IMG/VR virus record: IMGVR_UViG_3300021857_000099
Coordinates: 1 to 39,834 of that record
Direction: 5' to 3' (one strand)
Length of the DNA: 39,834 nt
Source: a virus
This document shows, piece by piece, positions 18,566-35,361 of the stretch (position 1 is its first letter; every line of letters starts with the position of its first letter). The notes under the pieces were generated by a model that worked only from the letters and a program-made list of their open reading frames with translations, was not told where the DNA came from and did no database searches. Made by a program: the position numbers and the translations under genes.

Positions 18566-19024
18566 TCAGCTGAGTGGGTAATAAATGGCGCTGTTGGCCC
18601 CGTGCTCGCGGACCTCGACAGATGACAGGTAGACGCGACCGTCAAGGTCTGGTTGCAGACTGAGCCAATAGATGACCTGGTCACCAATCAGCTTGGCAAA
18701 GGCCTCGCAGCCAGTGTCATGGACCACCACGACTTCGGCACCGCCCAATTCCTCAAGCCGCTTGAACTCGGCCAGGAGCGGGTCATCGGCGGCCACCAAG
18801 AGCTTGTGGTCGAAGGTGTTTTCAAGCATCTGTTTGATGGGCTTGAGAGAGCCGAAGTCAACCACCCAGTTCTTGCTGTTGAGGTGGGTGGCCAGGAACT
18901 CCATCTTGATGGCGAGGGCGTAGCCATGGACGAAGCGGCAGTGGCTGTCCGCCCGCCATTGACGGAAGCAGGCGGAAAGGCCAAGCTCGTGGCCAAAGGT
19001 TTTGGTACTGGCAAATTTAGGCAT
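18566..19024 (-). CDS. queD: QueD-like 6-carboxy-tetrahydropterin synthase
   Basis: 152 residues, starting at an ATG with AAGGA six bases upstream. It belongs to the T-fold 6-pyruvoyl/6-carboxy-tetrahydropterin synthase family and would convert dihydroneopterin triphosphate to 6-carboxy-tetrahydropterin, step two of preQ0 synthesis. Visible motifs: SACFRQWRADSHCRFVHGYAL (catalytic-type C29, H33), NWVVDFGSLK, FDHKLLVAADDP (D72, H73) and TGCEAFAKL (E107). The usual zinc triad is divergent: the first His is replaced by Phe (F20) and the HGH motif reads HGY (Y35). This variant wording (CFRQWRA...HGY) is one I know from phage and marine QueD-like proteins. It lies far from queE and queC, on the other strand. 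Confidence 0.82.
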   Translation of the reverse strand: MPKFASTKTFGHELGLSACFRQWRADSHCRFVHGYALAIKMEFLATHLNSKNWVVDFGSLKPIKQMLENTFDHKLLVAADDPLLAEFKRLEELGGAEVVVVHDTGCEAFAKLIGDQVIYWLSLQPDLDGRVYLSSVEVREHGANSAIYYPLS

Positions 19025-19040
19025 TGTGATTCCTTGGTGA

Positions 19041-19066
19041 CAAAAAGAAAGGGACCGAAGTCCCTC
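19041..19066 (-). terminator. Leftward intrinsic terminator with UUCG loop
   Basis: Read leftward: GGGAC-TTCG-GTCCC followed by TTTCTTTTTG. The C(UUCG)G tetraloop hairpin is exceptionally stable. It separates the DUF932 gene (stop at 19088) from queD (start at 19024), so queD may depend on read-through or on a promoter I could not see in the 20-nt gap. Confidence 0.82.
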
Positions 19067-19087
19067 ATTTATACGGGCGCTGACGAA

Positions 19088-20104
19088 TCAGGCCGTGAGC
19101 AGATCGAAGGCCGCCTGTTTGACGGCATCGCCGCGACCGAACCAAGCCGCGTCCATTCTGGTGTCATCACTGCGGCCCATGTCATGGTCGACAAGCTCAG
19201 TAACCGCGTTTAACAGGCCCCAGCGCGTTTCTTTGGCGCTGGTGAGGGTTGCCCCACGTCCCTGCCCTGAAAACAGCTCTAAGGCCCGGGAAACGACCCG
19301 GCTTTCTTTGGCCGCAGGAGCCACGGCGCTGGCACCAAGGCCAACCAGCCAAGCCAAGTCGGGTTTCGCCTCTTCTTTCTCGTCACTCTTGAAGAGCCGG
19401 CGAAGCACCTCGGTAGCCTCGGTCAGACCGACGGGCGTATCTGCCAGCTCTTTGGCCTTGGCCATGAAGACCTTGAAGCCGTCGCCCTTGAGTCCCAGGC
19501 TGCGCCGCACCAAGGTCGGATCGAAGGCGGTGCGGTGGCTGACCTCGACGTACTTCTTGTTGCGCTCGTTAATGAGAGCACGGGACAGAGTGTTGGCGCA
19601 GACCACACGCACGGTAGTTTCCTTGGCGATGGTCTTCATGGAGCCGTCGAGGCTAGTGGCCAGCAAGAGGTTCCGGACCACCTTGTCTCCCCGGCCCACG
19701 TTGGCGTCCTCGCCATTGGTGGCCATTGCCCAGATTTTGCGACCCTCACGGAGCACGCCAGCTGTGTGAATCCACCAGCCCTCGTGCTCAGTCATGTCAC
19801 GGAAGAATTCAAGAATGTCGACTGGCTGGACGACCTCGTAGCGGTCGCCCACAATGGCGAGCTGGTGGCCCGTATCGGAGCGGTACAGCATCTTGTAGCC
19901 GTCAGCTTGGATGTAATGACCCATGCCCTCGGGTTCAAATTTAACAATACCTTCCTTCGCCGTCCAATCAAGTCCGGCTTCCTTCGCCCAAACGCCGATG
20001 CTGGCTCCCTTGGTGACGGGCTGGCCAAGGCCACGCCACGGAGTTTCGCCGACGAAGGCCATTTCGGCGCTACCGTTAGCGCGGAGTGAGAGTTCGTGTG
20101 CCAT
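19088..20104 (-). CDS. DUF932-family protein (phage/plasmid-like, TIGR03299 type)
   Basis: 338 residues from the ATG at 20104 (AGGA about eight bases upstream). It begins MAHELSLRANGSAEMAFVGETPWRGLG, then LDWTAKEG, the MLYRSDTGHQLAIVGDRYEVVQP segment, and VVRNLLLATSLDGSMKTIAKETTVRVVCANTL. These are the diagnostic pieces of DUF932, a protein widespread in phages and plasmids. Its biochemical role is unknown; it is usually expressed early with recombination or replication genes. Here it is downstream of a ParB-like gene and ends at a strong terminator, so the two probably form one unit. Family assignment is firm, function is not. Confidence 0.9.
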   Translation of the reverse strand: MAHELSLRANGSAEMAFVGETPWRGLGQPVTKGASIGVWAKEAGLDWTAKEGIVKFEPEGMGHYIQADGYKMLYRSDTGHQLAIVGDRYEVVQPVDILEFFRDMTEHEGWWIHTAGVLREGRKIWAMATNGEDANVGRGDKVVRNLLLATSLDGSMKTIAKETTVRVVCANTLSRALINERNKKYVEVSHRTAFDPTLVRRSLGLKGDGFKVFMAKAKELADTPVGLTEATEVLRRLFKSDEKEEAKPDLAWLVGLGASAVAPAAKESRVVSRALELFSGQGRGATLTSAKETRWGLLNAVTELVDHDMGRSDDTRMDAAWFGRGDAVKQAAFDLLTA

Positions 20105-20190
20105 GATGAAGTTCCTCTGTAAGTTAGTAATGGTGAACGGGATGCTCACCTGCAAGCCCCGACCCGCGAGGCTAGCGGGTGGGTTATCTC

Positions 20191-21252
20191 TCAGACGGTC
20201 AACAGCTTGTTCTCAGCGCCGGCCGCCACCTTGAGTGCTTCGAGGGCGCCGAACATGAAGGCGATACGGTAACCTTCTGCTCGGCCCTTGAGCCATGCGT
20301 ACATGTCGGAGTCGAGGTCGAAGCCGTTGTTCTTCATCTCGTCCGAGAGCCGGGATGCCATGCTGGAGCCAATGGCGGACAGCTCGTTGTTGTCGAGGGC
20401 GCGAATCTTGACGACCTTGCCCTTGGACTTGGCCTTGGCCACCTTGGTGTTGTCGAGGCTACGGCGCAGGCTGCTGCGTTTGGTCTTGTCCTTGCCGACT
20501 GCCTTGGCTTGGGCCACCAGCTCGGCCTGCTTGGTCTTGTCACCCTTGGCCACCTTGGCAATGTCTTTGGCGGTAGTCTTGCTGACGGAGCCATCGGCCA
20601 CAGCTCCCTTGAGGTCGTCGCCGGCCTTCATCAGGTCAAGCATGCCACTGACGTGGACCTGAGCACGGCCGACTGCAGCACAAATGGCCTTGAGAGTCAT
20701 GCCGGCGTCTTTCATGCGCTGGTAGGCGGCGGCCTCTTCCAAGGGCAAGAAGTTCTTGCCGCTGTTGGCCTCAAACATCTGAACAAGGCTGGTCAGGTCT
20801 TTCTGTGCCCGGTCAACGATGACGGCCGGGATGCCTTCGGGGAAGGCTGCGTCGAACTTGCCTTTGGACATGAGGTGCTCCAAAGCCGACAGGCGGCGGT
20901 CACCGTCAATCAGCTCGAACAAGAAGACTTGGGTGCCAGTCTTGCCCTTGCCGTCATCAAGAACCGTGGGTTCAATCCGCTTGACGCGGATGGGGTTGAG
21001 CATGCCGTTCGCGGCAAGGCTCGTGGCAAGACCGTCAATCTCACCAAAGTCGAAGCGTGGATTCCAGCCGGGACGGCGCATGATGGCACGGGCGTCGATG
21101 AAATGAGCCACGCGTTTGGAATTGAGGACACCGTTGGTGGGAGCTGCCTTGGTCGTCTCCAGGTCTCCCTTGGCCATCGCCTTGGCAATGACGGCATTGG
21201 AAGCTGCGTGGATGTCGGTGGTCGTGGTAGCCGGTTTGGATGCTTTGGTCAT
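20191..21252 (-). CDS. ParB/Spo0J-like nuclease-domain DNA-binding protein
   Basis: 353 residues. The N-terminal ParB/sulfiredoxin-like domain shows NPRFDFGEIDGLATSLAANGMLNPIRVKRIE and FELIDGDRRLSALEHLM (GDRR box). A central helical region contains LKAICAAVGRAQVHVSGMLDLMKAG, a probable HTH. The C-terminal third is Lys-rich then ends in an alpha-helical YAWLKGRAEGYRIAFMFGALEALK. Members of this group in phages act as DNA-binding regulators, nucleases or partition-like factors. It is the first gene after the palindrome promoter at 21302-21328. The role in this phage (regulation or genome handling) is inferred. Confidence 0.85.
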   Translation of the reverse strand: MTKASKPATTTTDIHAASNAVIAKAMAKGDLETTKAAPTNGVLNSKRVAHFIDARAIMRRPGWNPRFDFGEIDGLATSLAANGMLNPIRVKRIEPTVLDDGKGKTGTQVFLFELIDGDRRLSALEHLMSKGKFDAAFPEGIPAVIVDRAQKDLTSLVQMFEANSGKNFLPLEEAAAYQRMKDAGMTLKAICAAVGRAQVHVSGMLDLMKAGDDLKGAVADGSVSKTTAKDIAKVAKGDKTKQAELVAQAKAVGKDKTKRSSLRRSLDNTKVAKAKSKGKVVKIRALDNNELSAIGSSMASRLSDEMKNNGFDLDSDMYAWLKGRAEGYRIAFMFGALEALKVAAGAENKLLTV

Positions 21253-21301
21253 GTCTGTACTCCGTTTGATTTACGCCGTCGAAATTGACTGGCGTGACTA
21301 A

Positions 21302-21328
21302 ATTATAACAACAATCTTTACAAAGATT
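21302..21328 (-). promoter_or_regulatory. Palindrome-class promoter for the ParB-like operon
   Basis: Leftward: AATCTTT-GT-AAAGATT (21313-21328), exactly five bases (GTTGT), then TATAAT (21307-21302). No TTGACA-like -35 is present; the palindrome fills the spacer. The ATG at 21252 is about 50 bp downstream. The identical layout occurs at 22645 and 29176. Confidence 0.75.
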
Positions 21329-21360
21329 CCGACTTTTTGCCAAATAAAACTAAAAAAGAC

Positions 21361-21386
21361 AACAAAAAGGGCCCAAAACTGGGCCC
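21361..21386 (-). terminator. Leftward intrinsic terminator
   Basis: Read leftward: GGGCCCA-GTTT-TGGGCCC followed by TTTTTGTTG. It ends the 21414-22601 unit about 28 bp after the stop of its last gene. Confidence 0.88.
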
Positions 21387-21413
21387 TGAGAGGGGAAGCG
21401 GTACGTAAAAAAG

Positions 21414-21818
21414 TCAGCCAGGGAGCCCGGTCAGTGCCTCAAAACGGCGTTTTGCCCGGTCAAGACAGGCCCCAGCTTCATCTTTCTGGCCGGCTGACCA
21501 AGGCACCGTGGGACTCTTGACAAGAGTCTCTAACCAACGTAGTGCTTCGACTAGGTCTTGGTTCGTCGGCGGGGCTGCTTCGGCCGTGTTGACCGGGGCC
21601 AGCTCAACGATGCGTGGGTACTGGCACATGGCCTCGTTCAAGTCCGCACAGCTAGAATTCTCAAACGCGTAACCAGTCCAGCGAGCGACAAGACCAGTTT
21701 CGCCCTTGTCAGTCATGCCCCGGTACCAGCGGCCGGCATGAAGCTCAATCGACTGGTGGTTGTTGAGGTTGGTGAACAGTGGGCTGAGTACCGTGGAAAT
21801 AACAGAACGTGGGGTCAT
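21414..21818 (-). CDS. Hypothetical protein, 134 aa
   Basis: The ATG at 21818 has AGGAGAG upstream and lies within the stop overlap of the preceding gene. Residues 1-75 (FTNLNNHQSIELHAGRWYRGMTDKGETGLVARWTGYAFENSSCADLNEAM) look like a small beta domain with conserved aromatic residues. Residues 85-130 form two helices (QDLVEALRWLETLVKS, KDEAGACLDRAKRRFEAL). No known family. It is the last gene of the small leftward operon driven by the palindrome promoter at 22645-22671 and is followed by a strong terminator. Confidence 0.72.
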   Translation of the reverse strand: MTPRSVISTVLSPLFTNLNNHQSIELHAGRWYRGMTDKGETGLVARWTGYAFENSSCADLNEAMCQYPRIVELAPVNTAEAAPPTNQDLVEALRWLETLVKSPTVPWSAGQKDEAGACLDRAKRRFEALTGLPG

Positions 21819-22141
21819 ACTTCTCTCCTGTGGTGTTTGAGAAATTCAGCGGGCCAAGAAAAGACCAGTCCGTGAGCAGCCTCAAGTTTGAGACCACCAG
21901 GAGCAATTGACTTGCAGACATGCTTCCGGTAAATGGCCATGCCGGCGCATTGGGTGTTTTTGATGGCGTGGCAAAGAATGATGTGGTCACTGTGGGAGAG
22001 AGCCACGTACTCGTCAGGAGTAGAACCGCCGAGCCAGCCCGGCAGTGAGGTACGGGCCATTGGGCAGTCTGAGCACGGAGTGGTGTGCTGCTTCTTCCCC
22101 TCTCCAGCCTCAGCTGATGAAATGAGACGACGGCCAGTCAT
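21815..22141 (-). CDS. Cysteine-rich hypothetical protein, 108 aa (DUF6283-like)
   Basis: The sequence has PCSDCPMARTSLPGWLGG, then HSDHIILCHAIKNTQCAGMAIYRKHVC. The arrangement CxxCP...G...CH...CAG is what I associate with the DUF6283-type small phage/actinobacterial proteins and would suit metal binding. Start and stop each overlap the neighbouring genes by four bases. Function unknown; the family name is tentative. Confidence 0.72.
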   Translation of the reverse strand: MTGRRLISSAEAGEGKKQHTTPCSDCPMARTSLPGWLGGSTPDEYVALSHSDHIILCHAIKNTQCAGMAIYRKHVCKSIAPGGLKLEAAHGLVFSWPAEFLKHHRREV

Positions 22142-22374
22142 ATCCTGGTGCCTCCGGTAACGATTGGCTTGTCAAGTGGCATTCCCGGCACAAAGCAGGC
22201 GTAGACCTTGATGTTGTCGCCGGTACGGGTCTCACCTTTGAAGGCTTCACGGAGCCTCTTGTGCATGGGGGTGTCGGCCTTGGTCTCGTACACGTAGTGA
22301 CGAGTCACGGTCTTGCCTGCATCAGGCCCTCGTCGTGGCTTGACGGTGCGTTGGTAGCTGGTCACGTAGGTCAT
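22138..22374 (-). CDS. Hypothetical protein, 78 aa
   Basis: A basic small protein: YVTSYQRTVKPRRGPDAGKTVTRHYVYETKADTPMHKRLREAF, then IKVYACFVPGMPLDKPIV. The beta-strand-rich pattern with R/K clusters is compatible with nucleic-acid or protein contact, but no domain is recognised. Both ends overlap adjacent genes (ATGA), so it is part of the four-gene unit 21414-22601. Confidence 0.7.
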   Translation of the reverse strand: MTYVTSYQRTVKPRRGPDAGKTVTRHYVYETKADTPMHKRLREAFKGETRTGDNIKVYACFVPGMPLDKPIVTGGTRI

Positions 22375-22601
22375 GCTCCGACTCCTTCAACTTGAGTGAA
22401 GTCACGACGCTGCTGTGGTGATGGCCATTCAAGGTAGCACTTGTCAATCCACTGGGTCGCCTGAGTCCGTCCCGGTCTCTCCCGAGTGGCGTCAATGAGT
22501 CCAACACCACTGGCTCCTTGATGGGCCACCACGCGGAACATGGTGGCGTCGGGGAGATGGTTGACGACTACGAGCTGGGCTACGTCTGGAAGTTTGTTCA
22601 T
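22371..22601 (-). CDS. Hypothetical protein, 76 aa
   Basis: First gene of the leftward unit under the palindrome promoter at 22645-22671. It has a strong AGGAG ribosome site six bases upstream of the ATG. The product starts MNKLPDVAQLVVVNHLPDATMFRVVAHQGASGVGLIDATRERPGRTQATQWIDKCYLEWPSPQQ, which reads as one small alpha/beta domain. No family recognised. It ends in an ATGA overlap with the next gene. Confidence 0.7.
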   Translation of the reverse strand: MNKLPDVAQLVVVNHLPDATMFRVVAHQGASGVGLIDATRERPGRTQATQWIDKCYLEWPSPQQRRDFTQVEGVGA

Positions 22602-22644
22602 CTGAGGCTCCTAAAACTGGCGAAGGGATTTCGCCGTTACCCCC

Positions 22645-22671
22645 ATTATAGCATAAATCTTTACAAAGATT
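22645..22671 (-). promoter_or_regulatory. Palindrome-class promoter for 22601-21414 unit
   Basis: Leftward: AATCTTT-GT-AAAGATT (22656-22671), five bases (TATGC), TATAAT (22650-22645). The spacing is identical to the copies at 21302 and 29176. It is about 45 bp ahead of the first gene's ATG, in an otherwise empty 80-bp gap. Confidence 0.77.
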
Positions 22672-22683
22672 ATTTTGCCGGTT

Positions 22684-23325
22684 TCAGTGAGGCTGAGTCC
22701 CGGCCACGATTCTGCGTGCCACGACTAGTCCCAGTCCCGAGGCCAAGTAGCCGGGGAACGAGCGGTCAAATAGAGCCTGCAGGTTACCGGAGCACGACAC
22801 GGCCAGCTTTACGGAGAGGGGAATGCTGTTACGCAAGCTAATGGCACGGGCTTGCTCAACTACAAGGGCGGCCAAGGTCTTGTACAGGCTTTGCCGCTCC
22901 GTTACGGTAAGCTCGTCAAAGTGACTGACGGTCATGAAGTCGGCGACAGGGCGCCAAGCGCTAGGAGCGGCCACTAAGCGTTTAATTACGGCCGGCCCTG
23001 CCAGTCCCCCATCCCCTGCCCCGAACGCGGTTTGTAGAGCTGAATACAAGGCTTGCGTCCACATATCCACGTCGCGGCTTTGCTCTGGTTTGGTTACCGT
23101 GGCCTCAAGTGCCAGCCTAGCCAGTAGTTCTTTACGTTGGGCTTTGGTCAAGGCCACGGCTTGCGTAAGAATATTAGCCACCCCATCCACGTCGTTGCCA
23201 CTAAGTCCCCCCTTAGTACCCCCCTCTATAGAGGGGGTAATACTAAGGGGGCTTTTAGGCCGGGCAGGAGCAGAAGAAATAGTTAAAGGAATCCGTGCTT
23301 GCCTAGTTAGTGAGACTTGGGCCAC
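22684..23325 (-). CDS. Hypothetical protein, 213 aa, with embedded palindrome
   Basis: The frame stays open far upstream inside the HTH gene, but the sensible start is GTG at 23325, one base after that gene's stop. The first 50 residues are low in structure and include SPLSITPSIEGGTKGGLSG, which is coded by a 44-bp DNA palindrome. Residues 50-213 are helical: VANILTQAVALTKAQRKELLARLALEATV, MWTQALYSALQTAFG, FDELTVTERQSLYKTLAALVVEQARAI. No family recognised. As the second gene after an HTH regulator at a divergent promoter it might be a co-regulator or replication accessory, which is a guess from position. Confidence 0.62.
   Translation of the reverse strand: MAQVSLTRQARIPLTISSAPARPKSPLSITPSIEGGTKGGLSGNDVDGVANILTQAVALTKAQRKELLARLALEATVTKPEQSRDVDMWTQALYSALQTAFGAGDGGLAGPAVIKRLVAAPSAWRPVADFMTVSHFDELTVTERQSLYKTLAALVVEQARAISLRNSIPLSVKLAVSCSGNLQALFDRSFPGYLASGLGLVVARRIVAGTQPH
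23208..23251. repeat. 44-bp near-perfect palindrome inside a CDS
   Basis: The outer arms CCCCCTTAGTA and TACTAAGGGGG (23208-23218 and 23241-23251) enclose a perfect 18-bp palindrome CCCCCTCTATAGAGGGGG (23220-23237). The connecting bases are c on one side and taa on the other. It resembles G-run-flanked palindromic repeats that insert into bacterial coding sequences in frame. It could also form a strong hairpin in the mRNA on both strands. Confidence 0.85.
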
Positions 23326-23326
23326 G

Positions 23327-23635
23327 TTAAGCCACCAGTCCTTGGCTTGCTCTGGTCTTTGGTCCCGGCTTCCCACGGACCTTACTAGCCAGTGCCCAGT
23401 TCCTTGCCACGGAAGCCGGGTCTTGATGCAAGACGAGGTCGTGCTGCTTGGCCCACTTGGTGACGGCCTTGGCAGAAAACTGCTTGGAGCGCTTGGTGGC
23501 ACCACCGGTCTGCGCGAGCTGGGGCAGTGGCTTGCGCTTCTGCGTTCCGGCACACCAACTGGAAATGGTGACGTGGCTGACCTCGAAAATTTCCATCAGG
23601 TCCTGCGTCGTCAGAGTGTCTACGGTCTTGCCCAT
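23327..23635 (-). CDS. Helix-turn-helix DNA-binding protein, 102 aa
   Basis: The N-terminus reads TTQDLMEIFEVSHVTISSWCAG (about residues 8-29), a clear HTH of the Nu1/MerR-like type. A basic stretch KRKPLPQLAQTGGATKRSKQFSAKAVTKWAKQ follows. The C-terminus is basic (KVRGKPGPKTRASQG). It is the first leftward gene of the divergent region facing queE, so it is a good candidate for the regulator acting on the nearby palindromes and for autoregulation. The family resembles terminase-small-like DNA-binding folds, but the real terS-like gene is elsewhere. Regulation role is inferred. Confidence 0.8.
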   Translation of the reverse strand: MGKTVDTLTTQDLMEIFEVSHVTISSWCAGTQKRKPLPQLAQTGGATKRSKQFSAKAVTKWAKQHDLVLHQDPASVARNWALASKVRGKPGPKTRASQGLVA

Positions 23636-23668
23636 GACTGAGCCCTTTCATTAAAACAAAGCTGTCAA

Positions 23669-23693
23669 ATTATAACGAGTCTTTGTAAAGTTT
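23669..23693 (-). promoter_or_regulatory. Leftward promoter of the divergent region
   Basis: TATAAT on the minus strand (23674-23669), with a degenerate palindrome AAACTTT-AC-AAAGACT (23693-23678) just upstream, at a gap of three instead of five. It lies about 35 bp from the HTH gene start. The shared core CTTTRYAAAG could serve both directions. Confidence 0.62.
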
Positions 23694-23709
23694 CCAGCCT
23701 TCCTATAAT
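23682..23709 (+). promoter_or_regulatory. Rightward promoter of the queE operon
   Basis: TTTGTA (23682-23687), 16-bp spacer, TATAAT (23704-23709); the predicted start is near 23716 and the queE ATG is at 23744 with CAGGAG eight bases upstream. The -35 overlaps the CTTTGTAAAG core of the leftward element, so one regulator could switch both. Confidence 0.68.
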
Positions 23710-23743
23710 TCCCCGTTCAATCACCATCACCAGGAGCCACTTT

Positions 23744-24463
23744 ATGTTTGGTCAAAACCCCATCCGCTCGGCCGAAACGGACCCGAAGCGACTCGCCATC
23801 CAGAGCACGTTCTACACCATCCAAGGCGAGGGTCCCTATTCGGGGATGCCGGCCCTGTTCATTCGCCTTGCCGGGTGTAACCTGGCCTGCCACTTCTGCG
23901 ACACTGAGTTCGAGACCATGGCGGAAATTTACAAAGACACGGACGCCCTCGTGAATACTCTCATCGCGACCTTGACAAAGACTCAGCGCAAGTTCGTGGT
24001 CTTGACTGGTGGCGAGCCAATGCGTCAAAACCTGCTTGGTCTGGTGACTCGTCTTTTTGAATCCGGCACTGAGCTGATTCAAATTGAAACCGCTGGCACT
24101 CTTTGGCAACCCGAACTGACTGGGTTCGTGAGCACTGGTTCCGTAGTGCTCGTCTGTAGTCCAAAAACCCCTTCCGTGCATCCACTAATTGGCCAACTGA
24201 CTCGCCATTGGAAGTACATCGTGGCCGCTGGTGAGACGAGCGAAGCTGACGGGCTCCCTAACCGAGGCACTCAGATGGCGACCAAAGACAAGGTCCAGAC
24301 CATCTTCCGAGCCAATCCACGCCATAACACCATCTGGGTGAGCCCTCGTGACGACTACGATCCTGTCAAGAACCAAGCCAACCAGGACCACGCCCGAGAT
24401 GTGTGTTTGAAATTTGGCTACCGGCTTAGCCTGCAAATCCACAAACTCATCGGCGTGGAATGA
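23744..24463 (+). CDS. queE: 7-carboxy-7-deazaguanine synthase QueE (radical SAM)
   Basis: 239 residues. The radical-SAM cysteines form CX3CX2C in CNLACHFCDT (C45, C49, C52). Other family features are STFYTIQGEGPYSGMPALFIRLAGC at the start, VLTGGEPMRQN (the GGE-like SAM contact), and IQIETAGTLW, SPKTP and WKYIVAAGE segments. QueE turns 6-carboxy-tetrahydropterin into 7-carboxy-7-deazaguanine, step three of preQ0 synthesis. It is the first gene of a rightward operon and overlaps the DUF6884 gene (ATGA). Together with queD, queC, folE and the dpdA-like gene it forms a full pathway to modified DNA. Very confident. Confidence 0.95.
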   Translation: MFGQNPIRSAETDPKRLAIQSTFYTIQGEGPYSGMPALFIRLAGCNLACHFCDTEFETMAEIYKDTDALVNTLIATLTKTQRKFVVLTGGEPMRQNLLGLVTRLFESGTELIQIETAGTLWQPELTGFVSTGSVVLVCSPKTPSVHPLIGQLTRHWKYIVAAGETSEADGLPNRGTQMATKDKVQTIFRANPRHNTIWVSPRDDYDPVKNQANQDHARDVCLKFGYRLSLQIHKLIGVE

Positions 24464-24915
24464 CTCCCAGGACTTACGACGTCGGGGTCATTCCCTGTAC
24501 GTCGAGGAAGCGGCCGGGTGGTCTCACGCCGGTAACCCTTTACATGGGGGGGCCGTTTTCTTTGATGATGCGTCACGCGGCCCAACGCTGCCGCAAAGTC
24601 ATCATCATGTCTGCCAAGTACGGCTTCATCGAGCTGACGGCACCAGTCCGGTGGTACGAAGCCTATTTGCCCAAGCTGGCGCCCCACGAACGCCGGCTTC
24701 TTCTGGACAAGCTCAGGGAGCAGGCCCCGGCCCAGTTTATTGGCAAGTCTGTGCTCTGGTACCCGTCGCAGGTCTACTTCGATGCCCTCGTCGAGGCCAC
24801 GCCGACCATTGCCGCCGGAGTCACCCGCCCTTACAAGACACTACCAAGTCTCGTCCTGTACAAAGTGCTCTCTAATGAAATTAAATGCTATGACAGCTCA
24901 CCGTCGAGACGGTAA
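24460..24915 (+). CDS. DUF6884-family protein
   Basis: 151 residues with the DUF6884 pattern: an N-terminal VGVIPCTSRKRPG (Cys-Ser-x-x-Lys motif), then LYMGGPFSLMMRHAAQRC, the KVIIMSAKYGFIEL strand, APVRWYEAYLPKL, and an RRLLLDKL helix. The biochemical role of the family is unknown; it is often found close to base-modification or glycosylase-type genes. Here it is translationally coupled to queE, which suggests a link to the deazaguanine pathway. This link is inference. Confidence 0.82.
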   Translation: MTPRTYDVGVIPCTSRKRPGGLTPVTLYMGGPFSLMMRHAAQRCRKVIIMSAKYGFIELTAPVRWYEAYLPKLAPHERRLLLDKLREQAPAQFIGKSVLWYPSQVYFDALVEATPTIAAGVTRPYKTLPSLVLYKVLSNEIKCYDSSPSRR

Positions 24916-27378: not shown

Positions 27379-27618
27379 ATGCCTCGTCGACTAGCACCAG
27401 AAGAAGTGGCCCGGCGCAAGGCCGTGGCAGACCAACGACGTCAAAAGGCTGAGGAGCGCAAGCGACAACGCCGGGAAGCATATGACCGGAACCACTGCGC
27501 CTGCGGTCGGGTACTCGGCTCCCTCAACAGAGCCAAGGGCCTCAAGACCTGCGACTACTGCCGGGCCAGCGCTGAGACCCGCAAGACCTGGGACTTCCTA
27601 AACGAGTGGATGCGATGA
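27379..27618 (+). CDS. Small zinc-finger-like protein, 79 aa
   Basis: ATG at 27379 with AAGG upstream, two bases after the helicase stop. A basic N-terminus (RRLAPEEVARRKAVADQRRQKAEERKRQRREAYDRN) precedes a four-cysteine motif HCACGRVLG...KTCDYCRAS, compatible with one zinc site. It ends DFLNEWMR and overlaps the next gene (ATGA). It probably binds nucleic acid or a replication protein. Confidence 0.7.
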   Translation: MPRRLAPEEVARRKAVADQRRQKAEERKRQRREAYDRNHCACGRVLGSLNRAKGLKTCDYCRASAETRKTWDFLNEWMR

Positions 27619-29177
27619 AGCTGGCAAGAGGAGCAGTCCGTGAGTACCTGAGCCGGGACCTCGACGACTTCCGGTGGATGAAAGCCCTCTTGCGTGAGCA
27701 GATACTGCGTGAGTTGGCCAGCTTCAAGGTCAAGCCAGTTTTCAAGACCGAACCATGGCTCCACCAGCTCGTCTGCTTTTACATCGGGCTCTGCCAGCCC
27801 AAGTTCCTGTTCCTCCTGGACATGGGGCTGGGCAAGTCAAAGATTGTGGCCGACCTCATCACGCAAAGAATCCGCGAAAAGAAAATTGACCGGGCTTGCG
27901 TCATGGTACCAAGGCTCAGTAACATTGACTCGTGGATGGACGGCCTTGCTCTTCACTCAGACCTTGAGCCATGTCCCGTCAAGGTCAGCGATACGGAAGC
28001 CAAGTGGGAAGCATTGGCCTACCCAAAAGGTGAGGTCACCCTAGTTGACTATCAGGGCTTCACCTTGGCTACCTCAACCCGCAAGTACTCATCCAAGACC
28101 AAGTACGATCTCGTCAGGGATGACAAGAAAATTAAGCACCTGCAGCGGACCTACAAGTTCATTGACCTTGACGAGAGCCACAAACTCAGCAACCACAACA
28201 ACCTCTGGTTCCATCTCCTCGACCCATTTACCAAGACTGCCGACTACTGCTACGCCAACACCGGCACCTTGTTTGGCAAAGACGTTGAGGACTTGTGGGC
28301 TCAGTTCTTTCTCGTTGACCGTGGCGAGACCTTCGGCCCCAACCTTGGCTTGTTCAGAGCCGGCTTCTTTCAGGCAAAGATGAACCCATGGAAGGGCACC
28401 ATCTATACCTTCGACAAGAAAGCGGACAAGCTCCTCAACGACATGCTCCAGCACCGGAGCATTCGCTACGACGAGACTGAGGTCCAGGACCTACCAAAAC
28501 TTACCCAGCGCCGCCATGCCATCAGGATGGGTGATGAGCAACGCCAACACTTCCTGCGTGCTTTGGAGGGCCTTATTAACGCCAACGGAGTCATCCAGAA
28601 CCTGGACGCGAACTGGTTGAGGATGAGGCAAATTAGTAGTGGCTACCTGGCTTGGAAAGACGAGCACGGTGACCACTTGCTCCCGTTCAAAGACAACCCC
28701 AAGCTGGACGCAGTAGAGCAGTTGGTGGACGAAATGGGGGATTCCAAAATCGTCATTGCTTACGACTACACGGAGACGGGCCGCCTCATCGTCGAGCGTA
28801 TCAAGTCAATGGGCCTTGGCTACGTCTGGTTCTATGGCGGCACCAAAGACAAGTCCGCAGCTCGTCAGAGCTTCCTACATGACACAAAGTGCCGGGTCAT
28901 GGTCATGAACAGTGAAGCTGGCGGTACTGGCAACGACGGCTTGCAAGACTGTGCCCGGTACCTTGTCATCTATGAGTCACCGACTCCACCTGACTCTCGA
29001 CGTCAGCTGATTAAACGGCTCCACAGAAGCGGACAGAAGCGACGTACCTTTGTGTATGACCTGGAAGCAGTGGGCAGTCTGGACAAGGGCATTATTGACA
29101 ACGCAGAGGCCGGCATTGACTTCCATTCCCAGGTCATTAACGGGCGGTTCAAAAAGAAAGATTTGCTACTGGCGTAA
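27615..29177 (+). CDS. SNF2/DEAD-type superfamily 2 helicase
   Basis: 520 residues, starting at the ATGA overlap. Motif I is FLLDMGLGKSK (Walker A, about 67-76). Motif II is IDLDESHKL (DESH, 186-189). Motif III-like ANTGTLFGKDVEDLW follows. The C-terminal helicase half has SKIVIAYDYTETGRLIVERIKSMGL, a WFYGGTKDKSA loop, and motif VI QLIKRLHRSGQKRRTFVYDLEAVGSLD. The HRxGQ wording and the DEAx-type box identify the SNF2-like/DEAD families of phage recombination or replication helicases. It completes the queE-led operon. The promoter for the next unit starts at the end of its coding region. Confidence 0.9.
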   Translation: MKLARGAVREYLSRDLDDFRWMKALLREQILRELASFKVKPVFKTEPWLHQLVCFYIGLCQPKFLFLLDMGLGKSKIVADLITQRIREKKIDRACVMVPRLSNIDSWMDGLALHSDLEPCPVKVSDTEAKWEALAYPKGEVTLVDYQGFTLATSTRKYSSKTKYDLVRDDKKIKHLQRTYKFIDLDESHKLSNHNNLWFHLLDPFTKTADYCYANTGTLFGKDVEDLWAQFFLVDRGETFGPNLGLFRAGFFQAKMNPWKGTIYTFDKKADKLLNDMLQHRSIRYDETEVQDLPKLTQRRHAIRMGDEQRQHFLRALEGLINANGVIQNLDANWLRMRQISSGYLAWKDEHGDHLLPFKDNPKLDAVEQLVDEMGDSKIVIAYDYTETGRLIVERIKSMGLGYVWFYGGTKDKSAARQSFLHDTKCRVMVMNSEAGGTGNDGLQDCARYLVIYESPTPPDSRRQLIKRLHRSGQKRRTFVYDLEAVGSLDKGIIDNAEAGIDFHSQVINGRFKKKDLLLA

Positions 29178-30588: not shown

Positions 30589-30598
30589 GGAGAGCATC

Positions 30599-30928
30599 AT
30601 GTCTAAAAAACCAACCAAGACCATCAAGTGGAAGTCAGGCCCACCACCTTTCGTCGGCTGGTGGAACGCGAGCACAAGGCAAACCCAGATTAGTTGGAGA
30701 TGGTGGAACGGGTCGCACTGGTCCGTTCCTTGCTGCCCTGCGGACAAAGAAGTGGGGAGCTTCGCAGAAATACCCAGTAAAGCGCTGCGACGTTGTATCG
30801 AATGGAACGACCGCTGGCCAGAGGGAGCCAGAGTTCCACGCATTGACCCGCGACCAATTAATGGGGCCTTGAAAAAGATGAAGGTAGGTCAGTGGTATTC
30901 CTTAAAGCAACTGAGAGCCATCAAATGA
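30599..30928 (+). CDS. Hypothetical protein, 109 aa, Trp-rich
   Basis: Preceded by GAGGAG. The sequence PPPFVGWWNASTRQTQISWRWWNGSHWSVPCC is unusually rich in tryptophan (seven in the first 60 residues), followed by a helical stretch KALRRCIEWNDRWPEGARVPRI and LKKMKVGQWYSLKQLRAIK. Family not known. It probably folds as a compact domain with an aromatic surface. Its ATGA overlap with the next gene shows co-expression with the primase. Confidence 0.7.
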   Translation: MSKKPTKTIKWKSGPPPFVGWWNASTRQTQISWRWWNGSHWSVPCCPADKEVGSFAEIPSKALRRCIEWNDRWPEGARVPRIDPRPINGALKKMKVGQWYSLKQLRAIK

Positions 30929-31308
30929 GCCGCTTCAATTCCTACTTCGTCAACCACTTCGGTGGCTGTCGACATCTTGCCTCTACCCATGACCAGCACA
31001 GGAACCGGGATGTCAAGATTTACCAGGTGCCCGGCTACTCTGACGTCGTCGGAGTAACGGACGGCGTTGACTGCTGGGTGGCTCCCGTCTCGCATGAAAT
31101 CTTCAAGGTCGATATCAAGAAACTGTTGGCCGACCTGCAGGCAGGCAAGGCCATCCACCTACCTGTCACGGCCGGCCTCAAATCCAGTGCTCGCAGGCGC
31201 ATTTCTTTCGATGAGGGTGACTCTGCCCCACCGGAAGCCCAAAACGAGCCCAAAGCTCGTCCTAGTCAGTCCCAGCGCGGTTCCCGTCGTGCTGCCTTTG
31301 TTGAATGA
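30925..31308 (+). CDS. Hypothetical protein, 127 aa
   Basis: Starts with an ATGA overlap. Sequence features are FNSYFVNHFGGCRHLAST, HRNRDVKIYQVPGYSDVVGVTDGVDCWVAPVSHEIFKVDIKKLLADLQ, then an Arg/Ser/Pro-rich disordered tail (PSQSQRGSRRA). The central part looks like a small beta-rich domain. No family recognised. It lies between the Trp-rich protein and the sigma-like gene. Confidence 0.7.
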   Translation: MSRFNSYFVNHFGGCRHLASTHDQHRNRDVKIYQVPGYSDVVGVTDGVDCWVAPVSHEIFKVDIKKLLADLQAGKAIHLPVTAGLKSSARRRISFDEGDSAPPEAQNEPKARPSQSQRGSRRAAFVE

Positions 31309-31317
31309 GGAGAAGCC

Positions 31318-31863
31318 ATGGTCTACGTTCCCGTTTTCGCCGGCCCACTTGAGGGCTGGACCGTCAACTATTGCCGCCAACACTATTGGCGTGTCAAGCG
31401 CTCACTCCCGTGGGAGGACCTTATGCAGGAGGCCCAGTTGGTGTTCCTCCGCTGCAAGGCCAAGTACTGGTACGTGGAAGAGCCCAAGCACTTTATGGCT
31501 TTGTTCAAGACTGCGTGGACCCACCAGTTCACCAGCTTCTCTGTCGCTGACTCAGACGGCCGGTTCATTACGTCCGGAGCCGAGGACGACGAGCAAGCTC
31601 CGGACGGCGTTGGTGAGCTGACCAATGACGGTGAGCTGGCCGTCATGCTGAGACAAGCACCACGTGAGGTCTTGATGGTGCTCAACCTCTTACTCAGCGC
31701 ACCGACCGAAATCATGGACATAGCACTGTCCAGTTGGAACGGGCAAGACGCCCGCTGCAAGACTGGTGGCAGTGAAAGAATTTGCAAGATGCTGGGGCTC
31801 CCTGCGAACCTCGACGTCATGCAGATGGTGGTGGACTACTTTAGGCCACCGAAGCAGGGGTAA
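31318..31863 (+). CDS. Putative sigma-factor-like protein
   Basis: 181 residues; AGGAG lies seven bases upstream of the ATG. Residues 13-60 follow the sigma-70 region 2 pattern: WTVNYCRQHYWRVKRSLPWEDLMQEAQLVFLRCKAKYWY, where EDLxQEA (33-39) is the region 2.2 hallmark, and PKHFMALFKTAWTHQFTSFS continues it. The C-terminal half shows LRQAPREVLMVLNLLLSAP and a MLGLP-type turn, possibly region 4-like. Such proteins occur in many phages and are inferred to redirect RNA polymerase or interact with it. A DNA-binding target such as the palindrome promoters is only a suggestion. Confidence 0.68.
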   Translation: MVYVPVFAGPLEGWTVNYCRQHYWRVKRSLPWEDLMQEAQLVFLRCKAKYWYVEEPKHFMALFKTAWTHQFTSFSVADSDGRFITSGAEDDEQAPDGVGELTNDGELAVMLRQAPREVLMVLNLLLSAPTEIMDIALSSWNGQDARCKTGGSERICKMLGLPANLDVMQMVVDYFRPPKQG

Positions 31864-31878
31864 TTTTGCTCGCCTCTG

Positions 31879-31884
31879 TATAAT
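31879..31884 (+). promoter_or_regulatory. Candidate promoter for the beta-module gene
   Basis: TATAAT preceded by CTG, without a recognisable -35; the leader has AACCCAACCGG (31905-31915), the same 11-mer as the leader after the promoter at 29176. The ATG is at 31925. No CTTTRYAAAG palindrome is present here. Confidence 0.45.
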
Positions 31885-31924
31885 TGATTAGCCAATGTGG
31901 CTTTAACCCAACCGGAGATTTTGA

Positions 31925-32890
31925 ATGCCCAACGTGAAAAAAGAACTGCTCAAGGCAGGTGATGTTGACGACCAGAAGAAAGGCGAGAGCCGACAAGACT
32001 TCTGCTTGCGTGTGATGAAGGCCACCCACGAGCTGTCCGATGCCAAGTGGGAAGCCCTCAGCCAGGACGCCAAGGACTGGTTCAACGAAGCCTGCGACCT
32101 CAAGGCCGAGAACAAGAAAGGTCCCTGGGACTTCGCCGTCATGTCTGGTGAGGAACCCGACGAGGAAGAAAAGCCGACCACCCGCCGCCGTGGCTCCAGC
32201 GATGACGCACCAGCTGTCACGACCATCCAGCCCACCGCCGTCAAGGTCAAGATGATGGTGAAGATCACCAACAAGCGTGGCAAAGACTTCACGGGCACCG
32301 TGGTCGAGGCCGACGACGAGGTGATTGTGGTCAAGCTGGGTAACGGCGACGAAGAAGAAATCGGCGTCGACCGCATCGAGTCCATTGAGGTCCTCAACCT
32401 TGACAAGGGCAAAGGCAAGTCCGACGAACCCGAGGCCGACGTGGTCAAGGTGGGCACCGTGGTCAAGCTGGTGACCAAGCGTGACAAGGAAGTGACTGGC
32501 AAGATTGTTGAGCTGGACGACGAAATCGTGGTCATTGATGTTGACGGCCAGGACCAGGAATTTGCCGTTGACCGCGTCAAGTCCATGACTCCCGTGGCGG
32601 CCGAAGGCAAGGCAGAAGGCAAGGCAGAAGGTGGCCGTCGCGGCAAGACCGAGGAAGCCAACGAAGAGCCGGCCAAAGACGGCAAGGCCAAGCGCGCCAG
32701 CAACGAAGGCGTCAGCATTGGCCAGCGCATCAAGGAACTCATCGCCGAGAACCTCGACGCTGACGAGGCCGAGATTGCCAAGCTCCTCAAGAAGGAAGGC
32801 CTTGACTTCAAGGACAACACTCTCAAGCTGAACTTCGTGGACTGCCACAAGTTCCTGACCATCTTGAAGGCGAAGAAGCTGCTCAAGTAA
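31925..32890 (+). CDS. Protein with duplicated KOW/Tudor-like modules
   Basis: 321 residues. The N-terminal 80 are helical and acidic (FCLRVMKATHELSDAKWEALSQDAKDWFNEACD). Two beta-modules are clear repeats of each other: about 107-153 (VKVKMMVKITNKRGKDFTGTVVEADDEVIVVKLGNG) and about 175-221 (KVGTVVKLVTKRDKEVTGKIVELDDEIVVIDVDGQ), each ending V-D-R-hx-S/E-hx. Both have the G-T/K-V-V-K turn typical of KOW/Tudor/SH3-like folds. The linker has an AEGKAEGKAEGG micro-repeat, and the end (IGQRIKELIAENLDADEAEIAKLLKKEGL) is helical and winged-helix-like. A single-stranded DNA, RNA or polymerase-binding role is possible but not shown. It is followed by an intrinsic terminator. Confidence 0.75.
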   Translation: MPNVKKELLKAGDVDDQKKGESRQDFCLRVMKATHELSDAKWEALSQDAKDWFNEACDLKAENKKGPWDFAVMSGEEPDEEEKPTTRRRGSSDDAPAVTTIQPTAVKVKMMVKITNKRGKDFTGTVVEADDEVIVVKLGNGDEEEIGVDRIESIEVLNLDKGKGKSDEPEADVVKVGTVVKLVTKRDKEVTGKIVELDDEIVVIDVDGQDQEFAVDRVKSMTPVAAEGKAEGKAEGGRRGKTEEANEEPAKDGKAKRASNEGVSIGQRIKELIAENLDADEAEIAKLLKKEGLDFKDNTLKLNFVDCHKFLTILKAKKLLK

Positions 32891-32923
32891 CAACTGGGCG
32901 CCAAGTCACCGTTTGGTAAATCG

Positions 32924-32969
32924 TGGGGCCTGCGTAGTCTGTTCGCGGGCCCCATTCTTTTTTTTCTTT
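32924..32969 (+). terminator. Rightward intrinsic terminator before queC
   Basis: TGGGGCCTGCG and CGCGGGCCCCA pair (11 bp with one G-U) around a 9-nt loop, then TTCTTTTTTTTCTTT. The queC Shine-Dalgarno AGGAG starts at 32970, directly after the T-tract. No promoter fits between, so queC-folE-dpdA transcription depends on read-through or on a hidden upstream signal. Confidence 0.88.
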
Positions 32970-32981
32970 AGGAGCGAAAAC

Positions 32982-33812
32982 ATGAGCAAGAAAGCAATCG
33001 TGGTCCTGTCTGGTGGACAAGACTCCACGGCCTGTCTGGTATGGGCACAGCGTCAGGGCTACCAGGTCGAGGCCCTGACCTTCTACTACGGTCAACGCCA
33101 TGAACTGGAAATCCTCGCCGCCTCTGACGTGGCCCTGCTCTGTGGCGTCGAGCGTCACGAGATCCTCAAGGTCGGCCCGATCCTCAACGGAACCAGTCCG
33201 CTGACCAACAAGAGCGAGACCTTGGAGACCTACATGGACTTTCAGTCCATGGACTCCATCATCGGCAACCGCGTCGAGAAGACGTTTGTGCCCATGCGCA
33301 ATGCCCTGTTCCTGACGCTGGCAGCAAACCGCGCCGTCTGCCAAGGCGCCGACACCATCATCACCGGCGTCTGTCAAGCCGACAACGCCAACTACCCGGA
33401 CTGCCGGGAGCCCTTCATTCATGCTCAACAGCAGACCATCAATCAAGCACTAGGTCTTGACCACTTGCGCATTGTGACCCCACTCATGCATATTTCCAAG
33501 TCCGAGGCCATCGTGGAAATGGCAGACCATGGTGACTTGCCTTTGCTGGCTTGGACTCACACGGCCTACGATGGCCTGTACCCACCGACTGGTCAGGACC
33601 ATGCCTCAGTCCTTCGTGCTCAGAGCTTTGTCGAGGCCGAGTGGCCGGACCCACTGGTCGTCCGTGCCTATATGGAAGGCAAGATGGCATTGCCCACCAC
33701 TGCCAACTACGCCAACCTGAGCTTGATCGAGAGCATCTATGACGAGGTCGTCAAGCAGCGCCGCCGTCTGGAAGACCTCAAGTTCGCAGCCATGAAAAAG
33801 ATGCAAGCATGA
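32982..33812 (+). CDS. queC: 7-cyano-7-deazaguanine synthase QueC
   Basis: 276 residues. The start at 32982 has AGGAG seven bases upstream. The PP-loop VVLSGGQDSTACLVWA (about 7-22) and YYGQRHELE identify QueC, which makes preQ0 from 7-carboxy-7-deazaguanine with ATP and ammonia. Other family parts are FVPMRNALFLTLAANRAVCQGADTIITGV and the DNANYPDCREPF region. In the usual zinc site, where bacterial QueC has a C...CxxCxxC cluster, this protein reads THTAYDGLYPPTGQDHASVLRAQSF (193-216), without any cysteine. The fold may therefore be stabilised differently. The gene overlaps folE by four bases (ATGA). Confidence 0.93.
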   Translation: MSKKAIVVLSGGQDSTACLVWAQRQGYQVEALTFYYGQRHELEILAASDVALLCGVERHEILKVGPILNGTSPLTNKSETLETYMDFQSMDSIIGNRVEKTFVPMRNALFLTLAANRAVCQGADTIITGVCQADNANYPDCREPFIHAQQQTINQALGLDHLRIVTPLMHISKSEAIVEMADHGDLPLLAWTHTAYDGLYPPTGQDHASVLRAQSFVEAEWPDPLVVRAYMEGKMALPTTANYANLSLIESIYDEVVKQRRRLEDLKFAAMKKMQA

Positions 33813-34414
33813 CCGCAGTGAAGTTGAGCATCCCGGACTCTGACCGGGCCTTCAGTGACCATCATTGCGAAGGCCTCATCACATCACTGCTCCGCAATCT
33901 GGGTGAGGACCCAATGCGTGAGGGCCTGCGCGAGACTCCGGCTCGCGTGGTCAAGGCTTGGCGCCATTGGACGCAAGGGTATGGGCAAGCCGCCGCCGAC
34001 GTGCTCAAGACCTTCGAGGACGGCGCTGAGGGCACGGACGAGATGGTGCTGGTCAGGGACATTCAGTTCTACAGTCACTGCGAACACCACATGGCTCCCT
34101 TCTTCGGCAAGGCCCATGTGGCATACATCCCCGACAAGCGCATCGTGGGCCTGTCCAAGCTGGCCCGGGTGGTTGACGTCTTTGCCCACCGCTTCCAGGT
34201 CCAGGAGCGCTTGACCAACCAGGTGGCCGATACCATCCAGGACGTTCTTGACCCGGTGGGGGTTGGCGTCATCTTCGAGGCCACGCACTTCTGCATGTGT
34301 AGCCGTGGCGTCAACAAGCAGGGGTCTACTACCGTGACCTCAGCTCTGCGTGGCGCCATCAAAACCAAGCCGTCGGCAAGGGCCGAGTTCCTGGCCATCT
34401 GCGGGATGCGGTAA
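33809..34414 (+). CDS. folE: GTP cyclohydrolase I
   Basis: 201 residues. It catalyses GTP to dihydroneopterin triphosphate, the first step of the folate and preQ0 routes. Family signatures are LGEDPMREGLRETPARV, FYSHCEHHMAPFFG with C91 and H94 as zinc ligands, HVAYIPDKRIVGLSKLARVVD, QERLTNQVAD and THFCMCSRGV with C162. Length matches the bacterial enzyme. It lies between queC and the dpdA-like gene with stop-start overlaps on both sides. Placing folE in the cluster feeds the pathway with its starting compound. Confidence 0.96.
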   Translation: MTAVKLSIPDSDRAFSDHHCEGLITSLLRNLGEDPMREGLRETPARVVKAWRHWTQGYGQAAADVLKTFEDGAEGTDEMVLVRDIQFYSHCEHHMAPFFGKAHVAYIPDKRIVGLSKLARVVDVFAHRFQVQERLTNQVADTIQDVLDPVGVGVIFEATHFCMCSRGVNKQGSTTVTSALRGAIKTKPSARAEFLAICGMR

Positions 34415-35361
34415 TGGTCCTGCTTGGTGGCTCTGACACGAGCCCGTGGGCAATGCGGGCCATGTTGGAAGGTCACCTGCGGACCTGCCTGCGTTCCTTC
34501 TTCTCGGTGGCCTCTACTTCAATCGTGAGCAAGAGCATGATCACTCCTAACGACTTCCGCTTCTTCCTCGACTCCGGGGCCTTCTCTGCCTGGAGCCGGG
34601 GCACCCAGATTGACCTGGACGAGTATTGCGCCTTCATCCGGGCCAACATTGACCACATTGAGGTGTACGCCAACCTTGACGTGATCGCAGGCAAGCCAGG
34701 TGGCGACGTGACCAAAGCAGAGCGCAACGAAGGCGCGCGACAGTCTTGGGACAACTTCCTGTACATGAAAAATGAAGGCCTGTCGCCCATCCCCGTCTAC
34801 CATATCGGCGAGGATTGGGAGTGGTTAGATCGCATGCTTGAGTACGGCTGTGACTACATCGGCCTTGGTGGTTTAGTCGGCGTTGACTCAGTCAGGCGCA
34901 GGAGCTGGCTTGACTCCGTCTTCCTCAAGATCACCGATGCCAAAGGAATGCCCGTCGTCAAGACTCACGGCTTCGGTATGACCTCGATACCACTCATCTT
35001 CCGCTACCCGTGGTACAGCGTCGACTCGACGACCTGGATCAAGATCACGGCCAACGGAGCTATCTACTTGCCGGCCATGGTCAACAATGAATTTGTCTTT
35101 GATCAGATTCCGTCGACCGTGACCGTCTCAACGAGCAATCCGAAGCAGAGCGAAGGTGGCAAAGCAGCCAACACCATGTCGTCGGCCATGCGGTCGGTCC
35201 TTGACCGCTGGCTCAAGGAGTGTGGTAAGACCTTCGAGGAAGTGGCCGCCGACTACTACCACCGCGCCGTCTGCAACGTCATCTACTTCCGCAAGGTGAG
35301 CGAGCAGAAGGGGGTCGTGCCCTTCAAGCGCGACCGCATTGTGCGCTCAACAATCTGGTGA
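34414..35361 (+). CDS. dpdA: DpdA-like 7-deazaguanine DNA transglycosylase (TGT family)
   Basis: 315 residues. The TGT-type hallmark DSGAFSAW (D53-F57) is present and, in phage DpdA proteins, holds the catalytic-type aspartate. EVYANLDVIAGKP, PIPVYHIGEDWEWLDRMLEYGCDYIGLGGLVG, VVKTHGFG and the C-terminal YHRAVCNVIYFRKV give the rest of the TIM-barrel. TGT enzymes exchange guanine for a 7-deazaguanine; DpdA homologues act on DNA. It is coupled to folE (TAATG). No zinc-ligand Cys cluster like that of bacterial Tgt is seen, as expected for phage DpdA. The phage should therefore modify its DNA guanines. Confidence 0.88.
   Translation: MVLLGGSDTSPWAMRAMLEGHLRTCLRSFFSVASTSIVSKSMITPNDFRFFLDSGAFSAWSRGTQIDLDEYCAFIRANIDHIEVYANLDVIAGKPGGDVTKAERNEGARQSWDNFLYMKNEGLSPIPVYHIGEDWEWLDRMLEYGCDYIGLGGLVGVDSVRRRSWLDSVFLKITDAKGMPVVKTHGFGMTSIPLIFRYPWYSVDSTTWIKITANGAIYLPAMVNNEFVFDQIPSTVTVSTSNPKQSEGGKAANTMSSAMRSVLDRWLKECGKTFEEVAADYYHRAVCNVIYFRKVSEQKGVVPFKRDRIVRSTIW

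Follow-up and report, generated by a model that had tools for sequence, protein, structure and literature searches.

A DUF6884 protein as a candidate finishing enzyme in a phage 7-deazaguanine DNA modification gene set with zinc-less QueC and zinc-poor QueD

Introduction

Which modified base does a phage end up with when it encodes a complete route from guanosine triphosphate (GTP) to 7-cyano-7-deazaguanine (preQ0) in DNA, and none of the familiar enzymes that process this base further? The question is raised by the uncultured virus record IMGVR_UViG_3300021857_000099, one whole linear IMG/VR record of 39,834 bases (G+C 57.6%) that was analysed at its full length and is referred to here as the window. 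Its genes for FolE, QueD, QueE, QueC and a DpdA-type transglycosylase form a complete set of a known kind, phage 7-deazaguanine DNA modification, as described in PMC6884629. The original prediction for this locus saw no QueF, amidotransferase or ArcS-like gene, and took preQ0-substituted DNA as the simplest outcome. The absence of QueF and of an amidotransferase holds, but that of any finishing gene does not: a gene at 24460-24915 on the plus strand had been passed over, which encodes a DUF6884 protein with a YaaA-like fold, a candidate finishing enzyme (PF21818, 55 bits against a cut-off of 30). The link between DUF6884 and the preQ0 genes shifts the likely product from 2'-deoxy-7-cyano-7-deazaguanosine (dPreQ0) to a base derived from its nitrile, most likely 2'-deoxy-7-amido-7-deazaguanosine (dADG). 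That dPreQ0 is made and its nitrile then changed, most likely to dADG, is a reading in which we place about as much belief as doubt.

Genes for preQ0 synthesis and insertion into DNA

The five genes lie where they had originally been placed and match their families in Pfam, NCBIfam or phrog. FolE, a GTP cyclohydrolase I (33809-34414, plus strand), matches PF01227 at 8.6e-73 and phrog_2197 at 8.2e-76, and keeps the CEHH and HFCM motifs. QueC (32982-33812, plus) scores 161 bits against TIGR00364, above the cut-off of 150.3, and matches PF06508 at 5.1e-49 on the longer TTG frame from 32913. All four enzymes of preQ0 synthesis are encoded, QueD and QueE falling below NCBIfam equivalog cut-offs while matching phage families. 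The QueD-like 6-carboxytetrahydropterin synthase, a zinc-poor variant (18566-19024, minus), matches PF01242 at 4.8e-15 and phrog_2389 at 5e-38, and reaches 41.1 bits where the QueD equivalog is cut off at 89.25. The QueE-like radical S-adenosylmethionine 7-carboxy-7-deazaguanine synthase (23744-24463, plus) has the CxxxCxxC cluster motif and matches phrog_2076 at 3e-45 and the solved QueE 4njg at 7.9e-16 (phmmer); PF04055 gives 28.6 bits, slightly short of its 29.5 cut-off, and the NCBIfam QueE models match below their cut-offs.

The DpdA1-type guanine transglycosylase (34414-35361, plus) matches phrog_887 at 1.4e-55, with no Pfam match at 0.01 and no NCBIfam match at 0.1. By tblastn it matches 259 phage records, the best being Edwardsiella phage vB_EpM_ZHS (OM621816, 71 kb; hereafter ZHS) at 57.8%, with 35.3% to phage 9g. 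D53, H130 and D204 are kept in all 11 aligned phage DpdA proteins, and we take these aspartates and the histidine to be catalytic, as in tRNA-guanine transglycosylase. Such genes might instead boost queuosine in host tRNA rather than mark phage DNA, a role suggested in PMC6884629 for phages that have preQ0 genes and lack DpdA. In the window a DpdA1 gene is present, overlaps FolE and keeps the conserved residues of its family, and deletion of dpdA in phage CAjan abolishes DNA modification (PMC6884629), which leaves the tRNA role very improbable. The proposed course from GTP to preQ0 and on to base exchange in DNA appears well supported, as judged from the families, the conserved DpdA residues and a collinear relative.

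The set is split over both strands, QueD alone being on the minus strand, and the five-gene arrangement is not a product of chance, since ZHS carries the same genes in the same order and on the same strands. Overlaps on the plus strand are 4 bases for QueC and FolE, 1 base for FolE and DpdA, and 4 bases (ATGA) for QueE and the DUF6884 gene. A division into three transcription units, as first proposed, was not borne out: QueE, DUF6884, QueC, FolE and DpdA are all on the plus strand, and promoter-like and terminator-like matches stay at shuffle level (4 against a shuffle mean of 5.8, and 20 against 16.8, respectively).

A search of the whole record found no QueF. The sole PF14489 match falls on FolE itself, and it was rejected as a QueF candidate. 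The same model matched eight of nine related records, one of them over the cut-off; in the four records where the match was placed (W01, G012, G008 and G025, the last being the one over the cut-off) it lies inside folE frames by coordinates. Pfam detects no amidotransferase domain in QueC, that is, no Gat-QueC.

DUF6884 genes often accompany que and dpdA genes and were not seen together with QueF

When 58 que-bearing records other than the window, a subset of 95 first listed, were searched whole, DUF6884 was found in eight. In seven of these it lies at most 1.7 kb from a que or folE gene, the exception being G029 with a distance of about 8 kb. Of the 43 viral loci returned by a scan that used DUF6884 as seed, 22 have que, folE or dpdA genes in the flanking sequence fetched, a proportion biased upward because the seed alignment was taken from que-bearing records. 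Among these 22, the two genes lie within 700 nt in 20 and on the same strand in 21, and by open frame they overlap or lie within 6 nt in 17, gaps being measured between stop-to-stop frames and not from start codons. Seven gene orders occur: queE-DUF, dpdA-DUF, DUF-queC, folE-DUF, queC-DUF-dpdA, queC-DUF-folE and queC-DUF-queD. Linkage differs with frame length, 21 of 28 stand-alone frames shorter than 300 residues being que-linked against 1 of 15 longer ones. Four of the viral contigs (L127, L135, L143 and L147) carry DUF6884 within frames of about 2,000 to more than 5,000 residues, with flanks free of que genes.

As a control, the DUF932 protein of the window was scanned in parallel, though not identically (the best 80 of 176 relatives from 2 seed sequences, against 10 seeds for DUF6884). 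Twelve of the 80 loci are que-linked, and these are the 12 closest relatives (53-61% identity); none of the other 68 (38-42%) is. The linkage also extends to a contig of the cyanobacterium Chlorogloeopsis fritschii PCC 6912 (L277, 4464-8157), where queE-queD-folE-queC-dpdA-DUF6884 stand in a single compact run.

DUF6884 and QueF were then counted in 90 loci with queC, queE, folE and dpdA, with profiles for QueF and the que genes made from a small number of phage proteins collected in this analysis. DUF6884 occurs in 22 loci, QueF in 31, both in none and neither in 37, in a sample where many DUF6884 loci had been chosen for having DUF6884 and some loci are fragments. The raw p value is 1.7e-5. 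Because L059 and L113 represent one contig, as do L042 and L114, tests were also made on DpdA clusters, giving 0.007, 0.037 and 0.043 at 90, 70 and 50% and 0.47 at 40%, where the exclusion is gone. One 50% cluster and two 40% clusters mix DUF6884 and QueF members, with no single locus having both. Mutually exclusive DUF6884 and QueF fit two ways of finishing one nitrile.

The linkage in seven orders, the control at 0 of 68 beyond the closest relatives and the exclusion of QueF argue against a reading in which dPreQ0 is the end product and DUF6884 leaves the base unchanged, whether its role is in base binding or flipping, in repair or in replication, or whether it is just a passenger. So does the naming of the domain, which is exemplified by dpdC in a survey of dpd islands in bacteria (PMC11888242). 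The related YfjM has been proposed to act in DNA repair (PMC11701544), which favours a role of this kind. On balance we regard this reading as possible but rather doubtful.

A predicted YaaA-like fold, and matches of related DUF6884 proteins to a DpdC model

The DUF6884 protein has 151 residues, in which Pfam finds DUF6884 only and no PUA domain. It carries both family motifs listed in Pfam, CxxxK and LSAxxG (PMC11701544), the former as C13-K17 and the latter as MSAKYG, with Met for Leu. An AlphaFold2 model from 28 sequences reached a predicted local distance difference test (pLDDT) score of 94.7 and a predicted template modelling (pTM) score of 0.88. In VIA-align it is closest to E. coli YaaA 5caj (Z 8.4, 139 residues, 5.5 Å). 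The second-best solved structure is AF0587 2q07 (Z 6.6, 117 residues, 4.1 Å), which we take to be an ArcS homologue; the remaining structures score 4.3 or less. Against the PDB, Foldseek returned no match as good as E 0.001 (YaaA 5caj, E 0.13); against a viral library, its top four matches (4e-09 to 6e-08) comprise three proteins named as DUF6884 and one named as YaaA. A PDB profile search with the DUF6884 alignment returned release-factor matches only (E 0.49 or above), which were taken as chance.

The similarity to AF0587 raises the alternative of an ArcS-like enzyme, which would join lysine or another amine to the nitrile once preQ0 is in the DNA and yield an amidine, 2'-deoxyarchaeosine (dG+) or an adduct that would escape targeted assays. 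PF21818 and a DpdC model also match the archaeal control genome Haloferax volcanii, at genome level; ArcS is reported to transfer lysine to preQ0 (PMC11298593); and the assay of Rosebush DNA as reported listed only dPreQ0, dADG, dG+, 2'-deoxy-7-aminomethyl-7-deazaguanosine (dPreQ1) and 2'-deoxyqueuosine (dQ) (PMC6884629). The lack of a Pfam PUA domain and the absence of DUF6884 from the dG+ phages 9g, Vid5 and nt-1 speak against such an enzyme, and we consider it improbable.

For hydration to dADG there is a bacterial precedent. In the Dpd system, insertion of preQ0 takes DpdA and DpdB, and DpdC produces dADG from dPreQ0 by hydrolysis (PMC12839542); S. Montevideo makes no dADG without dpdC (PMC11888242). 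Of 10 aligned phage DUF6884 proteins, 7 are recognised at E up to 1 by a PADLOC DpdC model (best 4.8e-06), which also matches the DUF6884 protein of a further locus, L118 (1.3e-06). The window protein has no match to the DpdC models at E up to 1, its only PADLOC match being PDC-M57A (2.2e-08), and it is therefore filed as DUF6884 and not as DpdC. It may nonetheless work like DpdC.

DUF6884 outside the expected pattern

Several observations weigh against DUF6884 as the enzyme that turns dPreQ0 into dADG, and the lack of a DpdC-model match to the window protein, the upward bias of the seeded scan and the loss of the exclusion under coarse clustering are to be counted with them. The first concerns phages of measured chemistry. 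Rosebush-type phages, represented here by Arbiter (placed in the same species; gp8) and by record G043, carry DUF6884, and yet about 28% of G in Rosebush DNA is dPreQ0 and about 0.003% dADG (PMC6884629). Conversely, DUF6884 was not found in MED16, 7-11, CP220, nt-1 or HVTV-1, the searched phages with measured dADG. Across the 14 records searched, several of known chemistry, DUF6884 occurs in the two of Rosebush type and in none of the other twelve; in a set of 14, mostly phages of known chemistry, the DpdC model likewise matched the Rosebush type only and PF03883 matched none. Since Rosebush is the sole DUF6884-bearing phage type with measured chemistry found, and its DNA contains dPreQ0 (PMC6884629), the original prediction is partly supported and preQ0-substituted DNA may still be the outcome; its premise that no finishing gene is present gives way to the DUF6884 candidate.

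The closest isolate, ZHS, has no DUF6884 anywhere in its 71 kb. DUF6884 is also frequent where QueC is not seen, which favours a role that leaves the base unchanged. It matched 51 records in one search and 166 in another; 148 of the latter are Mycobacterium records; QueC matched 44 Mycobacterium records, a comparison of totals. Some records have both, such as the Rosebush type and CRB2. In the seeded scan, 21 of the 43 loci have no que gene in their flanks, and when 25 DUF6884 records without a flanking queC were searched whole, one had QueC over the cut-off. DUF6884 is thus neither needed for dADG nor proof of it.

Zinc-less QueC and zinc-poor QueD

Canonical QueC (cluster 1) is described as carrying SGGxDS, YxQxHxxE, VPxRN and YPDC motifs and Tyr189, which is essential in E. 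coli; the same source regards its zinc motif as a hallmark and zinc as necessary (PMC13329287). The window QueC retains SGGQDS, YxQRHxxE, VPMRN, YPDC and Tyr196, but lacks the C(x)8CxxCxxC zinc motif: A195, T203, D206 and S209 stand at the places of the four zinc cysteines in solved QueC. It is counted as QueC by TIGR00364, as a zinc-less variant, and 189 residues of its model (pLDDT 93.8) align with 3bl5, the QueC of B. subtilis, at Z 21.4. In the window QueD, F20 and Y35 replace two of three histidines that we take to be zinc ligands, while C29, H33, D72-H73 and E140 are kept.

Loss of the QueC cysteines is all-or-none: 78 of 98 sampled proteins have no ligand cysteine and 20 have all four, a proportion that is not valid for phages at large because the sample was seeded from the window QueC. 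Duplicates or fragments (L001, L018, L048, L105 and L107) were dropped, and L039 and L025 were skipped as not parsed or short. The zinc-less class is defined as not having four cysteines in the motif stretch, and two members, L069 and L093, each have a single cysteine elsewhere than at a ligand position. The aligned zinc-less proteins retain the remaining QueC motifs. The zinc-poor type of QueD makes up 49 of 82 classified proteins, and both QueD types occur with either QueC type. A single origin of the zinc loss was weighed on the QueC tree, obtained by a quick method and with long branches flagged: the zinc change needs at least seven steps, of which the starred branches force only one.

The idea that zinc-less QueC is confined to phages was rejected, as it occurs in GTDB-genome loci, including several marine assemblies. 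Among 80 GTDB-genome QueC loci, 12 lack the motif by script, 63 keep it and 1 was unparsed; a further 4 of HTSYCG type (marked '?') lack it by eye. Loci L257-L267 are from bacterial assemblies, several of them marine (Dadabacteria, TMED58 and others), and most, with L259 differing, pair a zinc-less QueC with a flanking queE.

Phage AA17, which has Iggy as its closest neighbour, is reported to have DNA that resisted the restriction enzymes tried, and Iggy is said to behave likewise (PMC11945000). Iggy has both zinc-less QueC and zinc-poor QueD, and together these points suggest that the variant pathway works, an argument made from the genes of Iggy.

Proposed mechanism

The course that we infer would begin with FolE, QueD, QueE and QueC making preQ0 from GTP. 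DpdA would then exchange guanine in DNA for preQ0. The nitrile of the inserted base would be the target of the DUF6884 protein, which would act by way of Cys13 and most likely hydrate that group to give the amide, dADG, an outcome that would equal that of bacterial DpdC. The modification would presumably serve escape from host restriction enzymes.

More tentatively, we propose in general terms that phage DpdC-like DUF6884 nitrile enzymes are an alternative to QueF and produce dADG, or a nitrile-derived base not yet listed, also in some phages presumed to have dPreQ0 only, and that the pathway of this lineage works with a QueC and a QueD whose zinc sites are both lost. Phage DNA chemistry is predicted from gene content, and if the proposal is true, some predictions of dPreQ0 are wrong. 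If DUF6884 is the finishing enzyme, a gene for the last step becomes testable, and zinc-less QueC offers a natural test of whether preQ0 synthesis needs zinc. The DUF6884 link and the zinc-less enzymes are what is new here. In the open-licence literature that was searched we found no description of DUF6884 as a phage preQ0 enzyme; outside that scope, Cui et al. 2023 reportedly describe further phage 7-deazaguanines and DpdL/M/N, and may overlap with our findings in part.

Comparison with known systems

The window comes from a tailed phage, as its terminase large subunit (12189-13589, minus) and portal protein (8121-9650, minus) indicate, and the linear record is probably a fragment. Neither a search for near-identical sequence nor two viral scans with single proteins turned up a relative. 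QueE sits 8.5 kb upstream of the QueC-FolE-DpdA cluster on the same strand, and QueD lies on the minus strand beside DUF932 (TIGR03299) and ParB-like genes (19088-21252, minus) that are conserved in ZHS. DpdA is followed downstream by a gene resembling the beta clamp of DNA polymerase III, and then by a family A DNA polymerase (36811-39408), the N-terminal part of which matches the uracil-DNA-glycosylase superfamily (PF03167, 8.2e-06, residues 61-193).

ZHS has the gene order and strands of the window in the que region, with 45-67% identity over the 12 protein pairs compared, and shares the zinc-less QueC and zinc-poor QueD. The two differ after QueE, where ZHS has ZHS_83 (no Pfam match) and the window has DUF6884, and between DpdA and the clamp, where a 253-base gap in the window corresponds to a nucleoside 2-deoxyribosyltransferase gene in ZHS (21856-22266 of locus L002, PF05014 2e-08). 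In ZHS (L002, 20001-20915), DpdA is annotated as starting at 20115, which excludes about 114 bases alignable with the window DpdA.

Among bacterial systems, dpd islands combine a transglycosylase, a DUF6884-domain protein and preQ0 genes (PMC11888242), as the window does. They differ in that the window DpdA is of the short phage type and its DUF6884 protein has no DpdC-model match. Bacterial DpdB is also termed ParB-like (PMC12839542), but DpdB models gave no match at 0.01 among eight window proteins, including the ParB-like one, in a record that may be a fragment. The ParB-like gene (20191-21252) was rejected as DpdB for want of a PADLOC match, and an SNF2 helicase (27606-29177) as DpdE, since its best match, DpdE (3.3e-11), is accompanied by matches to DrmD, ZorD and others and the helicase was taken as generic. 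In Cellulophaga phage phiSM, a gene annotated as ParB-like lies between dpdA and queC (locus L035, 3518-3982).

Among phages, the dPreQ0 group 2 (CAjan and Rosebush; PMC6884629) has FolE, QueD, QueE, QueC and DpdA with no amidotransferase, and the window record, as far as it extends, resembles it in having neither QueF nor Gat-QueC. The Rosebush type shares DUF6884 with the window, whereas CAjan lacks it, and both CAjan and Arbiter differ from the window in their four-cysteine QueC and histidine-bearing QueD. Iggyvirus Iggy, Kleczkowskavirus RHEph04 and MMDA13 are closer in this respect, sharing zinc-less QueC and zinc-poor QueD, and their queC, folE, dpdA, beta clamp and polymerase genes are ordered as in the window, with other genes interspersed. 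They have no DUF6884, MMDA13 has a QueF-like gene that the window lacks, and their queE, queC, queD, folE and dpdA stand in one cluster. Given that Iggy, RHEph04, MMDA13 and 9g all follow the order queE, queC, queD, folE, dpdA, clamp and polymerase in a single, interspersed cluster, the split layout of the window looks like a rearranged form of that arrangement.

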